Both the position numbers and the translations under genes were made by a program. Below are positions 15,837-28,872 of a stretch of 39,656 bases of DNA, in pieces. Source of the stretch: a virus; the IMG/VR virus record IMGVR_UViG_3300018080_000320, positions 1 to 39,656 of that record; one strand, 5' to 3'. Position 1 is the stretch's first letter; each line of letters starts with the position of its first letter. The notes under the pieces are model-generated. The model made no database searches and was not told the origin of the DNA. It was given only the letters and a program-made list of their open reading frames with translations.

Positions 15837-16029
15837 GCTTCTCCTCTAATTAATCACTCATATTATTGATGTATCAAATTAATTATGTATTAGGTAAAGG
15901 TCAAGGGAAATTGATATTTTTTTCAGCATAGGATAGCTGAATTGCTATTAAACTACACAAATGTGTAGTGCTATGTTTCACATTATAAAACTTTGGGCAA
16001 AAAAACTCTAATTTCCTCAAACTTTTTTC
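15837..16029. promoter_or_regulatory. Divergent control region between leftward small genes and plus-strand cassette
   Basis: AT-rich, no gene. On the minus strand TTGACC with TAATTT 17 bases on is a weak promoter candidate for the leftward operon. At 15953-15968 there is a perfect palindrome CTACACA-AA-TGTGTAG that could be an operator distinct from the CTATCA type. The plus promoter begins just after this region. Confidence 0.45.
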
Positions 16030-16057
16030 TTGCAATCTATCTATCACATGGTATAAT
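16030..16057 (+). promoter_or_regulatory. Promoter of the plus-strand cassette with operator-like sequence
   Basis: TTGCAA, a 16-base spacer and TATAAT. The spacer contains CTATCTATCACATGG, which matches one half of the CTATCA-N2-TGATAG operator, and a perfect palindrome GATAGAT-TTT-ATCTATC follows at 16070-16086 in the leader. The repressor could block this promoter in the prophage. Confidence 0.7.
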
Positions 16058-16069
16058 TGTATTTGTATC

Positions 16070-16086
16070 GATAGATTTTATCTATC
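16070..16086. promoter_or_regulatory. Palindrome in leader of the plus-strand cassette
   Basis: GATAGAT, three-base centre, ATCTATC, just downstream of the -10. It shares the CTATC half-site with the repressor operators, so it is a candidate second operator. Confidence 0.5.
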
Positions 16087-16115
16087 ATAAATCTAATAGG
16101 TGGGAGGTAAAGAGA

Positions 16116-16436
16116 ATGACAGAACTAAAAGACAAGGTGACGTTCTACATACCATCGGAGTCAAACGGACAGTCAATCAACAATTCTGCAGTGCTTCACA
16201 TGATAGCTAAAAGACTTTCCAAACGGTTCGGCGGTTGCACTGTCACTGATGGTATCGGCTATTGGGTTAATGGATCGGGTGAACTTGTTTGCGAACCTGT
16301 CAAGCTTGTCTACTGCTATGGGGATTTTTCAAACGGTTTATCTAATCTGTTTTTCTTATTGGCTACATATATAAAGCAATCATTACGTCAAGAGTCTGTA
16401 GCCTACGAAATCAATAACAAGCTTGTACTTGTGTAG
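16116..16436 (+). CDS. Uncharacterised phage protein, first gene of the plus-strand cassette
   Basis: 106 residues from the ATG eight bases after GGAGG. An alpha-beta protein with KRFGGCTVTDGIGYWVNGSG and EPVKLVYCYGDFS near the centre. The 'FGG-C-T-V ... G-x-GYW' pattern recurs in small phage and plasmid proteins without known function. No catalytic motif. It is the promoter-proximal gene of an operon transcribed against its neighbours, so probably made early after derepression. Confidence 0.65.
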   Translation: MTELKDKVTFYIPSESNGQSINNSAVLHMIAKRLSKRFGGCTVTDGIGYWVNGSGELVCEPVKLVYCYGDFSNGLSNLFFLLATYIKQSLRQESVAYEINNKLVLV

Positions 16437-16446
16437 GGAGGATTCT

Positions 16447-16629
16447 ATGAAAAGGAATCTGTCAGCAAAGGATATGAAGATTGTCGGAACATTCCGAGGA
16501 TCTGATCCGATCTGTGAAGATTGCGTGATTAACAACGGAATGAGGTATCTGGACAGTCCTATTTTCCACCGTTGTGCTCGTGAATATAAGCTTATTTGCG
16601 ATGCTTGCGGAGAAGCACTTGCCAAGTAA
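16447..16629 (+). CDS. Small zinc-binding protein of the cassette, 60 aa
   Basis: ATG after GGGAGGATTCT. Cys23/Cys26 (PICEDC) and Cys51/Cys54 (ICDACG) form a likely zinc site with an additional Cys43. Basic and compact. Unknown function. Confidence 0.65.
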   Translation: MKRNLSAKDMKIVGTFRGSDPICEDCVINNGMRYLDSPIFHRCAREYKLICDACGEALAK

Positions 16630-16717
16630 GTGCATCGATTGCCGGATCGGTCAAACGGTCCGGTGGTATCGACAACGTTGTTGTCAGGGCGATTAAGAAT
16701 CGGACGGAGGAATCACT

Positions 16718-16996
16718 ATGAATCGGACGATTGCACAACATGCTCTTGATGCACTGAAAGTACAAGACGCATGTAACCTGTCGGGTGTCGTTCACTCACT
16801 CGACACGGTAGTAACCGATCTGTGGGAAGAAGCAAATCGGATCGGGCAGGGTACGGATTGGGTAAATACTCACCCAATTGTCAAGGCATACGTCGACAAG
16901 CTTGCATCGCTTGCAGGAGTACAGGTAGCTGTCAACCACTACGAGACTGTACTCGAAGCATTTGATGAATGTGAAAAGCTTGCTCGTATGGAATAG
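16718..16996 (+). CDS. Uncharacterised helical protein of the cassette, 92 aa
   Basis: ATG after GGAGGAATCACT. The protein MNRTIAQHALDALKVQDACN continues as an all-helical chain with many acidic residues (DLWEEANRIGQG). Its first four codons are themselves a copy of the cassette repeat. It ends GAATAG, which forms the next copy. A 'WEEANRIGQGTDWVNTHPI' segment recurs in phage small proteins; function unknown. Confidence 0.65.
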   Translation: MNRTIAQHALDALKVQDACNLSGVVHSLDTVVTDLWEEANRIGQGTDWVNTHPIVKAYVDKLASLAGVQVAVNHYETVLEAFDECEKLARME

Positions 16997-17010
16997 GACG
17001 GGAGGAAAAC

Positions 17011-17769
17011 ATGGGCACATCAAGAAAAGACAGACGCATAGGTGATTTGATGAGCAATACATCCTACACGTCTGCCAAGAAAATTGGACACAGTAGAGTA
17101 TTATGGACAGGCCAAAATGTCAACGGAGAACCAATCACAGCTATCCGGTACCATGATACTGACATAGCCGTACAAAAAGACGGTTTGCTCTGGCTAACAT
17201 CGGGGGGATGGCGAACCGCTACCACTAAGCTGAACATCAATAGAGCATTAGATTATTTTAACTATCCAGGTTTTATACATCAGAACCGCTCTATATGGTA
17301 TTACGATTCGCGGCTTAAAGGTATAGATCCATACATCTTTTTTGACGGCATGATAATCGATCATGCCGGAAACATTCGCAATCCCTCATTAGGAACAAGC
17401 GAACAAGAAAGAATCCAGAAAACTGTCAAACAAATTAACAACTATTGCCGAGTATTGCGCGAACAAATCAGAAGAGATGGTAGGGTGCCAAGGCCCACTA
17501 ACGGTGATTGTTGGGGTTGTCTGCTACGGACAGAATCGGGCAGTACCATGGGAGATGTGTTTGGTGACACAGAACACCTTGTCCTGCATCTAAAAGAAAA
17601 ATACATCCATGGATCGCTAATATTAAATGCCTTAGAACATGCTGGATATAAATATCCGGCCTTAATTGCCGGATGGTTTATAGATGGTAGCGATCACTGT
17701 GTGGATGACGATTCTGTGATACGTGCCGTTAGACGTTACCTGAAAGACAAATTGCACATCGGAAGATAG
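17011..17769 (+). CDS. Uncharacterised 252-aa protein of the cassette
   Basis: ATG after GGGAGGAAAAC. The first 100 residues have the layout 'HDTDIAVQKDGLLWLTSGGW, TATTKLNINR, SIWYYD' followed by IFFDGMIIDHAG, a family seen in environmental phages with no function assigned. The C-terminal half has a HLVLHLKEKYIHGSL and a Cys/His-containing segment GDCWGCLL. No membrane segment. It is the largest gene of the cassette and precedes a structured leader. Confidence 0.65.
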   Translation: MGTSRKDRRIGDLMSNTSYTSAKKIGHSRVLWTGQNVNGEPITAIRYHDTDIAVQKDGLLWLTSGGWRTATTKLNINRALDYFNYPGFIHQNRSIWYYDSRLKGIDPYIFFDGMIIDHAGNIRNPSLGTSEQERIQKTVKQINNYCRVLREQIRRDGRVPRPTNGDCWGCLLRTESGSTMGDVFGDTEHLVLHLKEKYIHGSLILNALEHAGYKYPALIAGWFIDGSDHCVDDDSVIRAVRRYLKDKLHIGR

Positions 17770-17774
17770 CACGG

Positions 17775-17841
17775 TAGGGCACGGTCTACAGAGCGCTCAT
17801 CCAATCGGGTGTAGGTCGGAGTGCAAGACTCCGGTGCCCTA
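17775..17841 (+). ncRNA. Candidate structured RNA with three-way junction
   Basis: An 8-bp closing stem TAGGGCAC/GTGCCCTA encloses two hairpins: GGTCTACA with TGTAGGTC (two G-U pairs) and CGGAGT-GCAAG-ACTCCG. Wobble pairs work only on the plus strand, so a plus-strand RNA is favoured. It resembles a tRNA in closing stem and last hairpin, but it is about 65 bases and lacks a D arm and an anticodon loop. It lies in the gap before the 185-aa gene. Confidence 0.5.
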
Positions 17842-17842
17842 T

Positions 17843-17889
17843 AGGTGCGTTGCACCTCAATATCTTAACAGTCCGATTAGGAATCGGAC
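17843..17889 (+). promoter_or_regulatory. Two leader hairpins before the 185-aa gene
   Basis: AGGTGC-GTT-GCACCT (17843-17857) and GTCCGATT-AGG-AATCGGAC (17871-17889), both perfect. The second contains a copy of the cassette repeat and ends next to the ribosome site, so it could gate translation of the following gene. Confidence 0.55.
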
Positions 17890-17902
17890 GAAGGAGAGGA
17901 TA

Positions 17903-18460
17903 ATGAAAAGACTCATTATCTCCCAGGATGATTGTCCTGAATCTCCCAGAGAATGGGACAATCTCGGTACGATGGTATGCTTTCACCGACACTACGATCT
18001 CGGCGACAAGCATGAGTTCTCCGATCCCCAGGACTTTCTTGACTACCTGGAATCGGACGATCCGATCAGACTCCCGCTTTATTTGTTGGATCATAGTGGC
18101 CTCTGGATGCGAACCGGACAGTTCATGGAAGATCCCCAAGGGTGGGATACGTCGATGGTAGGATTTATCTACGTCACCCGCGAAAAGGTCCAGCAAGAAT
18201 ACGGGTGGAAAAGATTGACTCAGAAACGGATCAAACAGATTCAACAACACCTGGAATCGGAAGTTGCCACCTACTCACAATACCTGGAAGGTGACGTTTG
18301 GGGATTTTCGCTGATCGAAGAAACCAAGTGCTGTCAGTGCCACCAAACAATCACGGATATTCTTGATTCCTGTTGGGGATTCTACGGCCATAACCCCAAG
18401 ACAAACGGTATGGCCGATCACATCCCCGACCTGGATCAATACGAAATCGTCTACGAATAG
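17903..18460 (+). CDS. Conserved phage/plasmid protein with PREWDNLGTM motif
   Basis: 185 residues from the ATG after GAAGGAGAGGATA. The start SQDDCPESPREWDNLGTMVC, followed by FHRHYDLGD, is a widely distributed but uncharacterised family of phages and mobile elements. Residues about 78-95 (LYLLDHSGLWMRTGQF) and 109-120 (MVGFIYVTREK) complete the typical layout. The C-terminus has a CCQCHQ cluster. It ends in GAATAG that feeds the next ribosome site. Confidence 0.75.
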   Translation: MKRLIISQDDCPESPREWDNLGTMVCFHRHYDLGDKHEFSDPQDFLDYLESDDPIRLPLYLLDHSGLWMRTGQFMEDPQGWDTSMVGFIYVTREKVQQEYGWKRLTQKRIKQIQQHLESEVATYSQYLEGDVWGFSLIEETKCCQCHQTITDILDSCWGFYGHNPKTNGMADHIPDLDQYEIVYE

Positions 18461-18473
18461 GACGGAGGAACCC

Positions 18474-18641
18474 GTGGAAAAGGTACGAATCGTGGTGAAA
18501 CACGGAATTGTCACGGACGTTAAAACAGACGTGCCTATGACAATTCAACTCATCGATCAGGGGCAGGAGGGGTTGAGAGGCTATCGTTGGGTATCGATCC
18601 CTGAAAACCTGCAAAGACTTCCCCGGCGATATTGGAGGTAA
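18474..18641 (+). CDS. Uncharacterised 55-aa protein of the cassette
   Basis: GTG start after GGAGGAACCC. MEKVRIVVKHGIVTDVKTDV reads as a beta hairpin, followed by MTIQLIDQGQEGLRGYRWV. The stop includes the ribosome site of the next gene. Short, basic end (RRYWR). Coding is supported by spacing and ribosome site. Confidence 0.6.
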   Translation: MEKVRIVVKHGIVTDVKTDVPMTIQLIDQGQEGLRGYRWVSIPENLQRLPRRYWR

Positions 18642-18642
18642 C

Positions 18643-18879
18643 ATGGCAAAGGAAGGTTTTTTGCATGATGCGTTTGTCAAGTTCGACAAGAAAAGCAACA
18701 AGCTTATCAAACGGTGTCGAGTATGTAGAACCGATCTTGCAAAAGCCGAATTGATCCGTGCTTGGGAATCGGACGGAAGAAAGAACTTTATCTACGCCTG
18801 CCCAAAGTGCGGACGGTTCAACTTGTTTTTCAGGAAGCGGAGCTATGGACGTGACGTATCAAATCGCATGGTGGGATAA
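18643..18879 (+). CDS. Zinc-ribbon protein of the cassette, 78 aa
   Basis: ATG after GGAGGTAAC. Cys25/Cys28 (KRCRVCRT) and Cys53/Cys56 (YACPKCGRF) form a zinc ribbon; the protein is strongly basic (RKRSYGRD), suggesting nucleic-acid contact. Its last 35 bases overlap the next gene. A copy of the cassette repeat lies within it. Confidence 0.65.
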   Translation: MAKEGFLHDAFVKFDKKSNKLIKRCRVCRTDLAKAELIRAWESDGRKNFIYACPKCGRFNLFFRKRSYGRDVSNRMVG

Positions 18880-19045
18880 AAAGGTACAGTCCCCGGATCG
18901 GGCAGGCTGGAAGTTTATGCCCTCAGAAATCCATAAAACCAAACACCGAGGAATCGAGCGCCTGCACTCCTTGCGGAAACTGTACCCTGGTATCACATTC
19001 TCCCTGCAAAAAATATCCAGGGAGATTTTAGCACAGGTACAGTAG
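18845..19045 (+). CDS. Uncharacterised 66-aa protein, last gene of the cassette
   Basis: ATG after CGGAGCT. Begins MDVTYQIAWWDKKVQSPDRA; the central part (GIERLHSLRKLYPGITFSL) is helical and basic. It overlaps the zinc-ribbon gene and is followed by a terminator. No domain recognised. Confidence 0.55.
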   Translation: MDVTYQIAWWDKKVQSPDRAGWKFMPSEIHKTKHRGIERLHSLRKLYPGITFSLQKISREILAQVQ

Positions 19046-19084
19046 TAAGACAATTGCACGATAACATCGAGAATGTTACTATGC

Positions 19085-19112
19085 AAAGGGACAGTCAACC
19101 AGCTGTCCCTTT
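19085..19112 (+). terminator. Rho-independent terminator of the plus-strand cassette
   Basis: A 10-bp stem AAAGGGACAG / CTGTCCCTTT with an 8-base loop, then TTATTTG on the plus strand. It stands 40 bases after the last stop of the cassette. Confidence 0.85.
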
Positions 19113-19155
19113 TTATTTGTCAAAAATTGGATGCTGTCAAATCGTCATTCAGAAT

Positions 19156-19235
19156 AGGACGGCTGCCCTCTTACTCGTTTACCCTTCGGTAGCGCTTTGC
19201 CACCCCGCTCACACAACCTGGAAAGCAGCCGCCCT
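19156..19235 (-). ncRNA. Candidate minus-strand structured RNA flanked by cassette repeats
   Basis: On the minus strand AGGGCGGCTGC pairs with GCAGCCGTCCT (11 bp with one G-U), enclosing GGTGGC-AAAGC-GCTACC (6 bp with one G-U). The wobble pairs would be mismatches on the plus strand, which favours a minus-strand transcript, perhaps the 3' end of the leftward early operon. Copies of GAAT(C/A)GGACG lie at 19152 and 19239, at each end. The rest of 19046-19291 is AT-rich and shows no gene. Confidence 0.45.
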
Positions 19236-19291
19236 GATGAATCGGACGATAAAAAAAATTACTATGTGCTAATTAATATATCAAAAATATA

Positions 19292-19615
19292 TTACGCGAT
19301 TCTACGACCGGAAATCGCACGGTAGTGCATCGGACTGTTGTTTATGATCTTGGTCCACCTACGACAACTGTTCCGTTTCTGCTCCGATTCTTTTTTGAAC
19401 AACCGGCGCGGCTCCTTGGGAATCGACCTCGGTTCCACATACTCAATCGTGCCATGCTCAGACTCCCATCGCATGATCATTTGTTTAAGAGTCGGGTGCG
19501 CTACACCGATTTGCTTCGCGCACCATGTTACACCCTTGGTCTTGAGATAGAGCTGCAAAAACTCTACCTGATCCTCGGTCAATAGCCTTGCCGTTGGTCC
19601 ATATTTATGCTTCAT
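19292..19615 (-). CDS. Helix-turn-helix protein, last gene of the early operon
   Basis: 107 residues, ATG after GAGGGGTTGAAAG. Residues 12-50 (LTEDQVEFLQLYLKTKGVTW, then GVAHPTLKQMI) form a clear HTH. The basic C-terminal half (KKESEQKRNSCRRWTK) may extend DNA binding. Overlaps the previous gene by 11 bases. As the last gene of the replication operon it may regulate the later switch; target unknown. Confidence 0.65.
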   Translation of the reverse strand: MKHKYGPTARLLTEDQVEFLQLYLKTKGVTWCAKQIGVAHPTLKQMIMRWESEHGTIEYVEPRSIPKEPRRLFKKESEQKRNSCRRWTKIINNSPMHYRAISGRRIA

Positions 19616-27281: not shown

Positions 27282-27691
27282 CAATAGATCCTCCGTACCA
27301 GAATCGTCAAAATACGATCCCCGGCCACCTCACAGATGGGGCACCATGCCGTCATAATCAGCATTTCCCGGTAAGGATGTTCGTAATACCAAATCCACAA
27401 TACTTTGCCGCCAAGATCATTTTCTTGATAAACGGTAATTGTCTGCGCCTTGGGGTCAAGCTGATAGCTATAGGTTTTTTCATCTCCCGGAGCCGAGAAT
27501 AAGAACGTGGTTTCAAAGAAAAAAACTACTGCTTCGGGATCTTCCACAGATGGCTTGAGTAGCCCCACTCCCTCGATTGCGGCAAAATAGATACACCAGC
27601 CAGCGTCCTGCAGGACATGGGTATTCAGATCCATCGCCCCCACCGATACACTAAGTGCCAGAATCACAAGAACCCAAAAAATGCGTTTCAT
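27281..27691 (-). CDS. Secreted protein of unknown function
   Basis: 136 residues, ATG after GGGGAGGTGCGCT. A signal peptide (residues 1-19, FWVLVILALSVSVGA) with cleavage near GA-MD is followed by a beta-rich, Tyr/Trp-rich domain (KVLWIWYYEHPYREMLIM) and a late Cys-x2-Cys pair (WCPICE). It lies between the integrase and a tRNA gene and overlaps the integrase start. Position beside the integrase suggests a lysogenic-conversion gene. Nothing known is recognised. Confidence 0.6.
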   Translation of the reverse strand: MKRIFWVLVILALSVSVGAMDLNTHVLQDAGWCIYFAAIEGVGLLKPSVEDPEAVVFFFETTFLFSAPGDEKTYSYQLDPKAQTITVYQENDLGGKVLWIWYYEHPYREMLIMTAWCPICEVAGDRILTILVRRIY

Positions 27692-27707
27692 AGCGCACCT
27701 CCCCTAT

Positions 27708-27782
27708 TTGGCCCGGATGGATTTGAACCACCGATCTTTCGGATATCAGCCGACTGCTCTACCCTGGCTGAGCTACGGGCCA
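27708..27782 (-). tRNA. tRNA-Ile (anticodon GAT)
   Basis: Acceptor stem TGGCCCG/CGGGCCA (7 bp), D arm GCTC...GAGC, anticodon stem GTCGG/CCGAA with loop CTGATAT, T arm GGTGG-TTCAAAT-CCATC. One mismatch (27-43) in the anticodon stem. No CCA is encoded. It reads on the same strand as the integrase. Confidence 0.85.
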
Positions 27783-27792
27783 TTTATTAAAA

Positions 27793-27866
27793 GGTACAAA
27801 TCGGGTACAAAATGTTCAAGAGAAACTACCTAATATTTTCTGATTTTTTAATTCGTTGTTAGGTAG
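27793..27866. repeat. Direct and inverted repeats on the integrase side of the att core
   Basis: Two direct copies of GGTACAAA at 27793 and 27804, and an inverted repeat CTACCTAA...TTAGGTAG at 27826-27833 and 27859-27866. Such repeats beside an att core are plausible integrase arm sites, but this is inference. Confidence 0.45.
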
Positions 27867-27876
27867 GAAATAAAAA

Positions 27877-27918
27877 AGCGAGCGAGGGGAATCGAACCCC
27901 CGTCACGAGCTTGGGAAG
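27877..27918 (-). other. Probable attP core: 3' end of a tRNA-Gly(TCC) gene
   Basis: On the minus strand: anticodon loop CTTCCCA, stem AGCTC, T arm GGGGG-TTCGATT-CCCCT and acceptor CGCTCGC, in exact tRNA order. No matching 5' half (GCGAGCG, D arm) precedes it. A 3' tRNA fragment near a tyrosine integrase gene is the classic form of attP, which restores the host tRNA on integration. Confidence 0.72.
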
Positions 27919-27934
27919 CGGCTGTTCAATCAGG

Positions 27935-28041
27935 CGATAGTTGCGATCTATCGATATTTTTAGATTTGCGTTGCAGGAAGGTGAGGCAAGGGCTTTAGAC
28001 TATCACCGTGCATTTTAGATTCTATTATACGATAGTTGCGA
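27935..28041 (-). repeat. Repeated TTGCG-type sites flanking the att core
   Basis: A perfect 12-base direct repeat CGATAGTTGCGA occurs at 27935-27946 and 28030-28041, with additional TTGCG copies near 27966 and 28047. Regular short repeats on the side of the core away from the integrase gene are typical of integrase or accessory-protein arm sites. Confidence 0.5.
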
Positions 28042-28077
28042 ATTGTTGCGTTGAGTTTTGGGGTGCAAATTAGGTAC

Positions 28078-28149
28078 AGCCCGCGCAGGGATTCGAACCC
28101 TGACCCTAAGCTTGGAAGGCTCTCATGCTGCCGTTCACACCACACGGGC
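28078..28149 (-). tRNA. tRNA-Gly (anticodon TCC)
   Basis: Acceptor GCCCGTG/CGCGGGC (one wobble), T arm CAGGG-TTCGAAT-CCCTG, anticodon loop CTTCCAA with stem AGAGC/GCTTA (one mismatch, one wobble). D arm GTGT/GCAT has two wobbles. Full length of 72 bases. The anticodon is the same as that of the attP fragment nearby. Confidence 0.75.
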
Positions 28150-28152
28150 AAG

Positions 28153-28226
28153 AGGGGGATTCTCGAACCTTCAAGGCTCCCGGGCCATGTTCCCGGGGCA
28201 GTTATCCCTATCCCGGTCAATCCCCC
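28153..28226 (-). tRNA. Degenerate tRNA-like sequence (possible tRNA pseudogene)
   Basis: The acceptor GGGGGAT/ATCCCCC is perfect and CCGGG-AACATGG-CCCGG makes a stem with CAT in the anticodon place, but U33 is replaced by A, the loop lies three bases too far from the 5' end, and the T loop (GGTTCGAGAATCC) carries extra bases. The D arm does not pair. Reads as a decayed or unusual tRNA, possibly Met. It lies in register between two good tRNAs. Confidence 0.35.
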
Positions 28227-28253
28227 GACACGGTTGGCTGGCCGTGCCAACGT

Positions 28254-28324
28254 AGCCCCCGGGAGGAATCGAACCTCCGTACCGCTGATTTGCAGTCAGC
28301 GGGCTACCCATTTGCTTCGGAGGC
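28254..28324 (-). tRNA. tRNA-Cys (anticodon GCA)
   Basis: Acceptor GCCTCCG/CGGGGGC (one wobble), anticodon stem GCTGA/TCAGC with loop CTGCAAA, T arm GGAGG-TTCGATT-CCTCC. The short D arm is typical for Cys. It begins six bases downstream of tRNA-His. Confidence 0.85.
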
Positions 28325-28329
28325 AAGAG

Positions 28330-28401
28330 GGTAACTGACTGGACTCGAACCAGCATCACCTGATTCACAGTCAGGTCGCTTGCCCTTAGCGTACAGCTAC
28401 C
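28330..28401 (-). tRNA. tRNA-His (anticodon GTG)
   Basis: Eight-base-pair acceptor GGTAGCTG/CAGTTACC, including the extra G opposite C73 that marks tRNA-His. D arm CGCT/AGCG, anticodon stem CCTGA/TCAGG with loop CTGTGAA, T arm GCTGG-TTCGAGT-CCAGT. Confidence 0.88.
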
Positions 28402-28404
28402 ATG

Positions 28405-28872
28405 TTATAGAATTGCAAAAATTAGCGCCAGAATCAGCGCCAGTATACCACCACCAGCCGCAACATTTCGTTGTCGCCGGAGTCTATGGGCTTTCAATTC
28501 CACCTTCTTCTTGTAGTCGTCGAATGAGATCCGCAAGACGTTGATTTGCTCCTCGAAGTTTTTGGAGTCCTGTTCGGATATCGTCAACTCCGCTTCGGCC
28601 TGTTTCAATTTCCTCTCTGCCCTCAACAATCTCTCTTCGAGCCTCGATAATCTCATCGCCTGCTGATTCAACGAGTTCACTACTTTGTTCAATCCGTTCT
28701 CGATACACTTCGCCGACTCGTTCAATTCGCTCGATATCATCTGCAACTCGTTCAGCAGCTCGGTCTGGTCCAGGGTGTATGAAATCGCGGAGCCACCCAA
28801 CAGCAGACACAACACCAATACCAAGAACAACGACGATTGCCACAATCGAGATGATCTTCCGAAGTTTCTCAT
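28405..28872 (-). CDS. Coiled-coil protein with N- and C-terminal membrane segments (spanin-like)
   Basis: 155 residues, ATG eight bases after AGGAG and overlapping the holin-like stop (ATGA). N-terminal hydrophobic stretch (residues about 14-32, SSLFLVLVLCLLLGGSAI), a long coiled coil, and a C-terminal membrane segment (GGGILALILALIFAIL). The N-terminal hydrophobic segment has a Cys but no clear lipobox. This layout resembles a spanin that bridges the two membranes at the end of lysis. A second reading frame overlaps it almost completely. Confidence 0.65.
   Translation of the reverse strand: MRNFGRSSRLWQSSLFLVLVLCLLLGGSAISYTLDQTELLNELQMISSELNESAKCIENGLNKVVNSLNQQAMRLSRLEERLLRAERKLKQAEAELTISEQDSKNFEEQINVLRISFDDYKKKVELKAHRLRRQRNVAAGGGILALILALIFAIL

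Follow-up and report, generated by a model that had tools for sequence, protein, structure and literature searches.

A folded intercistronic stretch in a phage operon is most likely a divergent copy of a repeated hairpin-and-motif leader module

We analyzed a virus record of 39,656 bases, which is referred to as the window in its full length. It belongs to a phage encoding terminase, portal, RecE/RecT-like proteins, an integrase and an RNA ligase. Most of the identified genes are directed leftward; the region from 16.1 to 19.1 kb is a short rightward operon. A folded stretch (17775–17890) is located within this operon, between the stop codon of one gene (17767–17769) and the start codon of the next (17903). 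The operon signals and the two neighboring genes are:

16030–16057, plus strand: operon promoter, sigma-70-like, TTGCAA-16-TATAAT (matching at 10 of 12 positions; scans of this type also hit shuffled sequences)
17011–17769, plus strand: upstream gene, 252 amino acids, weak match to phrog_554/Kyano_Gp96
17903–18460, plus strand: downstream gene, 185 amino acids, phrog_6186 family, function not known
19085–19112, plus strand: intrinsic terminator of the operon

Besides the site at 16030, no promoter-like site was found on the plus strand between 15900 and 19400. Another gene of the operon, 18643–18879, encodes a zinc-ribbon-like product. The upstream gene had no relative in the viral contigs searched, and a terminase search of genome contigs revealed no relative. 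The phrog_6186 gene is conserved and was found in 48 viral loci and in 14 phage records. Four tRNAs at 27.7–28.4 kb (minus strand) are the only Rfam matches in the whole window. In this region (27600–28460), which is near the integrase gene, T-arm-like remnants are visible by eye between the tRNAs; the cluster possibly reflects tRNA decay or an attachment site.

An initial annotation had described the folded stretch as a closed three-way junction followed by two perfect hairpins, the last of which contains a repeated motif and touches the ribosome site. The fold is real and all of its pieces are present. The stretch comprises the following features, where HP1 and HP2 denote the hairpins of a repeated module described below:

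17775–17841, plus strand: three-way-junction domain, defined by pair probabilities; it occupies the HP1 slot of the other module copies
17843–17857, plus strand: HP2, perfect 6-bp hairpin AGGTGC GTT GCACCT, closed C-GTT-G (probability 0.66–0.78 in long context)
17871–17889, plus strand: third hairpin, perfect 8 bp, GTCCGATT AGG AATCGGAC (pair probability mostly 1.0)
17881–17890, plus strand: start-associated copy of the repeated motif, GAATCGGACG, of the GAATMGGACG type; it holds the 3' arm of the third hairpin
17891–17899, plus strand: Shine-Dalgarno-like purine stretch AAGGAGAGG, directly 3' of the motif
17898–17923 (ends approximate), plus strand: predicted start-codon hairpin GGATAATGA-AAAGAC-TCATTATCT from the in-context minimum free energy structure; it contains the ATG at 17903–17905

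Pair probabilities were computed in 201 nt of context. The junction begins 5 nt past the upstream gene's stop codon, and its 8-bp closing stem (17775–17782 with 17834–17841) has pair probabilities of 0.92–1.00. Both internal hairpins are found where they had been placed. The middle one (17798–17802 with 17807–17811) has 5 bp including one U-G pair and a 4-nt loop (probability 0.91–0.92), and the T-arm-like one (17817–17833, CGGAG-TGCAAGA-CTCCG) forms with a probability of 0.95–1.00. The two perfect hairpins follow, and the 3' arm of the last one indeed lies in the motif, with the Shine-Dalgarno sequence starting at 17891. The start-codon hairpin is a feature that the initial annotation did not contain. 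Start codon 17903 has an unpaired probability of 0.00; among 32 starts (4 from the operon and 28 others, leaving out 16118, 16448, 18475 and 18847), this is the lowest value, shared with the portal gene.

On the plus strand the stretch (137 nt) folds with −54.7 kcal/mol and a z-score of −4.49, which was equalled by none of 200 shuffles. The junction alone (68 nt) resulted in a z-score of −3.21, equalled by 1 of 200 shuffles. A preference for the plus strand had also been claimed. This is correct, because the opposite strand folds more weakly (−43.0 kcal/mol, z = −2.92).

The junction is tRNA-like in shape and clearly not a tRNA, as had been proposed. Its 8-bp stem is perfect and stacks directly onto a hairpin of 5 bp that has a TNCRANN loop. 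In a test devised only after the element had been seen, this acceptor/T-arm geometry (perfect pairs required) was found at a single place in the window and was absent from all 300 of its dinucleotide shuffles. The loop reads TGCAAGA compared to TTCRANN, with a G replacing the second T and the stacking geometry intact; this G falls at tRNA position 55, where tRNAs have T. ARAGORN and Rfam gave no match, even at E 10. Specifically, tRNA-clan models did not match the 86 nt around the junction up to E 10, and no Rfam family reached its gathering score in the element. By comparison, the truncated tRNA of locus L037 scores 17.8 bits with tRNA-Sec. The junction has no D arm, no regular anticodon arm (an arm with a 7-nt loop is not present, the middle hairpin having a loop of 4 nt) and no encoded CCA. 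A tRNA or tRNA-derived element was rejected as a claim of membership because of the missing ARAGORN and Rfam matches, and is kept as a low-ranking alternative (see below). Known riboswitches and other Rfam families were rejected for want of a match.

Truncated tRNA-like elements were observed in other loci, 1.6–2.3 kb upstream of the phrog_6186 homologue and on the same strand (L037/L039, 3341–3398; L009, 1690–1757). Short tRNA-like pieces form an array in Lactobacillus phage LL-H (L057, 355–1130) and in a related sequence from a Faecalicatena record (L065, 5650–6990). As judged by eye, these have T-arm and acceptor-like stems and little or nothing of the D and anticodon arms. The arrays are flanked by a hypothetical gene on one side and the small terminase gene on the other; in LL-H, no tRNA or other RNA is annotated in this region. 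One element of the LL-H type shows the identical 17-nt hairpin beneath a 7-bp closing stem. The string of this hairpin occurs at 13 places (3 viral, 10 genomic), with a comparable non-coding element in the two related ones. Since the searches used that 17-nt arm itself, the LL-H match is a lead and not a claim of homology. In L063 the hairpin has a 7-pair closing stem at long distance, which was judged to be chance. L058 and L059 were rejected as relatives of the junction, as they share the hairpin string but have a different fold.

The stretch had been interpreted as the leader of a conserved gene. The gene is indeed conserved, but the stretch is intercistronic within an operon and not the leader of a transcript of its own. 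We surveyed the upstream folds of 45 of the 48 phrog_6186 loci; three were dropped because there was no in-frame ATG or too little upstream sequence. Upstream z-scores of −3 or lower were found for 5 of the 45 homologues (median −0.46), and two of these five regions, when folded and read, end in ordinary terminators. The structure was thus rejected as a conserved leader of the phrog_6186 family. Of the two functions originally suggested, riboregulator or new small RNA, a cis-acting regulatory RNA is the likelier one, whereas an independent small RNA at 17775–17890 is unsupported, there being no other promoter-like site on the plus strand of 15900–19400.

The motif GAATMGGACG occurs nine times in the window, always on the plus strand and within 16697–19248, compared to 0.23 expected copies. 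It is absent from 50 of 52 loci; the two carriers are L001, which is a copy of the window, and L052, a relative with a 77% identical terminase. L052 contains eight copies, again on one strand only. A start codon follows 7 of all 17 copies (4 of 9 in the window, 3 of 8 in L052), and the four in the window are at ribosome-site distance. Two of these lack the hairpins described below:

16991–17000, plus strand: motif overlapping the stop codon of gene 16718–16996, before ATG 17011; no hairpin module
18455–18464, plus strand: motif overlapping the stop codon of gene 17903–18460, upstream of a probable GTG start near 18474; hairpin module absent

The other copies in the window are located in coding sequence (18050, 18766), spanning a gene start (16720) and after the terminator (19152, 19239). 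The copy at 18766 encodes part of W-E-S-D-G and is itself retained in the L052 orthologue. The last two copies delimit a well-conserved non-coding stretch of about 97 nt past the operon terminator (window 19152–19248, L052 102–208), with a motif at each end. This stretch and its L052 counterpart fold no better than shuffles (z-scores of −0.36 and 1.17). The pattern CGATTNNGAATMGGACGNNGG was found in four stretches of viral contigs. One of them (L074) is the L052 contig, and the other three (L072, L073, L075) contain isolated motif copies in a different context.

Four leaders, one in the window and three in L052, have a module in common. It consists of HP1 after the upstream stop codon, then HP2, then GAATMGGACG adjoining the Shine-Dalgarno sequence. 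HP1 is a hairpin of 12–13 bp with a GUCAAA loop (window 16638–16667; L052 2086–2118, 1592–1624 and 1220–1252). HP2 is a hairpin of 6–7 bp closed by C-GUY-G (window 16671–16685 and 17843–17857; L052 2066–2082, 1572–1586 and 1200–1216). The complete copy in the window is composed of:

16638–16667, plus strand: HP1, 12 bp, loop GTCAAA
16671–16685, plus strand: HP2, GACAAC GTT GTTGTC
16697–16706, plus strand: motif, followed by GAGGA and ATG 16718 (model match 16637–16712, 70.1 bits; this copy is itself in the model)

Taken alone, this leader folds no more stably than expected by chance (z = −0.88). The HP1 copies of L052 lead into short stretches rich in T (GGTTTTA, AATTATTT) and have the appearance of intrinsic terminators within an operon; the window HP1 has no T run. 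Hairpins precede four of the seven start-associated motif copies and one degenerate motif. Two C-GTY-G hairpins are found in the window compared to 0.14 expected, and other loci totalling 638,768 bases, scanned on both strands, contain the C-GTT-G form four times. In the data searched, the module is carried by two phages only.

Both hairpins covary. In the five HP2 copies from two phages, 100% of the cells are paired and five of six pairs are changed on both sides; in the four HP1 copies, 97.9% are paired and 8 of 12 pairs are changed on both sides. Each covariation score was reached in 0 of 500 shuffles, although the counts are biased upward because some copies (L052 1200, 2066 and 1572, and the GTCAAA hairpins) came from scans that required pairing. 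One gap in alignment A9 was set by hand. RNAalifold without a given structure predicted both hairpins from the four leaders, with two-sided changes in 11 of 20 pairs. The leader at 1538–1630 of L052 precedes the orthologue (70% identical protein) of window gene 16718. This pair of leaders was not chosen by pairing, because it is defined by gene orthology; in both leaders the two hairpins pair with differing letters. The compensatory stem changes together with the constant loops argue for a signal that is read in RNA.

Covariation among homologues had been named as the check for the reported stretch. It is found for HP2 (17843–17857), one of the five copies from two phages, and is absent in the last hairpin. 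In nine copies of the latter (17871–17889), no pair was changed on both sides and 65.3% of the cells were paired. We therefore rejected it as a conserved hairpin; only the motif sequence is kept there. The reported element retains the motif as well as HP2, which is separated from the junction by 1 nt, and has the three-way junction in the HP1 slot. The spacer between HP2 and the motif measures 23 nt compared to 10–12 nt in the other copies, and the module model scores 14.0 bits (E 0.063) on the element compared to 70–101 bits for the four training copies. L052 lacks the genes of 17011–18460 as well as the reported element.

Homologues of the junction or element were not found by an exact 25-nt pattern search or by a BLAST search of 1201 nt against phages. 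BLAST with 79 nt against phages and plasmids gave chance-level matches and LL-H over 18 nt, and single modules gave chance-level matches in phages and plasmids. In 14 records, covariance model R1 had strong matches only in the record of L052 itself, with weak ones elsewhere (14–26 bits). There was no match in 398 genomes at 1e-4. The 4/395 weak matches of R1 (27–29 bits) were all aligned: the one in L084, read in its context, is inside coding sequence and was rejected as a module, as were the other three, which align mainly as terminator-like hairpins. The stretch at 17775–17890 is most likely a cis-acting RNA element and a divergent copy of the repeated phage leader module.

HP2, with its invariant loop on a variable stem, and the constant sequence after it at the ribosome site resemble the translational operator of an RNA-binding regulator. 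We tentatively favor a unit of this kind, which would control translation in a small phage regulon similar to start-associated systems (SAS/ESAS, see below) and of which the reported element would be a divergent copy. HP2 and the motif would be read by an RNA-binding factor of phage or host, or through an extended contact with the ribosome, and this reading would set the translation of the genes carrying them; the hairpin-plus-signal units probably control the timing of translation. At 17775–17890 we infer that the tRNA-shaped three-way junction stands in for HP1. At gene 17903 an additional hairpin would enclose the motif and yet another one the start codon, so that translation of this gene is probably more strongly closed by default.

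Alternatively, the hairpins could mark a boundary between mRNA segments. HP1 would shield the upstream message at its 3' end or act as a weak terminator for it, HP2 would guard the downstream 5' end after cleavage between the two, the motif would be an enlarged ribosome site, and the junction would do the job of HP1 at 17775. The spacing is consistent with this: in the window copy and in L052a, HP1 comes shortly past the stop codon of the gene before it, the junction lies 5 nt after its own upstream stop codon, and in all copies the start of HP2 is 1–5 nt from the preceding HP1 or junction. The terminator-like entry of the L052 HP1 copies into T-rich stretches points in the same direction, but the window HP1 does not share it. 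Moreover, end protection alone would not need the fixed loops GUCAAA and C-GUY-G on free stems, and we regard this explanation as unlikely.

A boundary at the DNA level, with motif and leader serving as recombination or exchange points for gene units, is rather improbable. The two phages do carry different genes in the interval bounded by the 16718 and 18643 orthologues, and each of these genes has its own motif or leader (17011, 17903 and the ORF after 18464 in the window; 988–1167 in L052). L052 also contains a module-plus-gene unit (1632–2033) before the 16718 orthologue that is missing in the window, and repeats in cluster O mycobacteriophages were tied to insertions and deletions by the authors of that study (PMC4351075). 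However, exchange points would not explain hairpins preserved by compensatory changes, and the single orientation of all copies (9/9 and 8/8) is that of a signal read in the transcript.

The junction (17775–17841) could also be a decayed or truncated tRNA, either inert or cleaved by RNase P or RNase Z. Its acceptor/T-arm geometry, the truncated tRNA-like elements of other phages (L037/L039, L009, LL-H and the related L065) and the four tRNAs and RNA ligase of the window phage would fit. In contrast to the truncated tRNA of L037, though, its 86 nt have no tRNA-clan match at E 10, the TNCRANN loop has a G where tRNAs have T, and the LL-H match came from searching with that very hairpin. This makes such an origin distinctly improbable for the junction. 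It is very improbable that, in a phage regulon united by a modular RNA operator, an exchangeable HP1 slot with a tRNA-shaped domain ties phrog_6186 expression to the state of tRNA metabolism or to a tRNA-cleaving defence, in which case RNase P, RNase Z or tRNA modification enzymes of host or phage, or the phage RNA ligase, would handle the element. Least probable of all is antitermination by an RNA that acts in cis like HK022 put and is reloaded along the operon: there are two adjacent hairpins of about 50 nt overall in a phage operon, and some L052 HP1 copies are terminator-like, but up to three copies are placed in front of single genes and reach as far as the ribosome site, and a motif beside the Shine-Dalgarno sequence has no role in antitermination.

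Compared to known systems, the HK022 putRNAs (about 70 nt, two stem-loops) are located downstream of each of two early promoters, one put per promoter (PMC9378689). Two adjacent stem-loops are common to both systems, whereas position, copy number and the association with gene starts differ. Like tRNAs and tRNA gene fragments (PMC9897764), the junction stacks its closing stem on an arm of 5 bp with a 7-nt TNCRANN loop; unlike the junction, tRNAs have a D arm, a regular anticodon arm and a model match. In the T4 gene 43 operator (PMC3014915), a hairpin whose loop is conserved lies some 40 nt ahead of the start codon and is combined with a sequence reaching the ribosome site, as here. We likewise found a structure-conserved hairpin, a fixed loop and a fixed ribosome-site sequence, which are structural features of a gp43-type operator. 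The T4 operator, however, has another loop sequence and serves one gene with a known protein (gp43), whereas several genes are involved here.

A further parallel is with start-associated sequences, described in 2011 in cluster K phages with a function not known at that time (PMC3203893). SAS/ESAS are short repeats at the ribosome sites of some non-structural genes (PMC3203893, PMC7302621). In cluster K as well as in cluster EF Microbacterium phages (PMC7302621), they have one main orientation and lie in the non-structural region, about half of the sites have an upstream inverted-repeat extension, and the repeat can contain the stop codon of the previous gene; all of this is also true for the module. 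An ATAGGA core is common to GGGATAGGAGCCC (cluster K) and GAATAGGACG (here). The consensus differs, being GAATMGGACG here compared to GGGATAGGAGCCC in cluster K and GGGAAAGGACCCC in cluster EF, and the phages are different ones. Virtually all SAS copies are within a few nt of a start, compared to 7 of 17 copies here. In PMC3203893, the function is left open, RNA pairing of ESAS finds little support and DNA-binding sites are favored; the upstream part of the module, in contrast, consists of two hairpins with covarying stems. As a comparable system in a different phage, the module would make the question of DNA or RNA site, and of ribosome or regulator, directly testable, and it would offer a way into studying a group of small phage genes without a known role.
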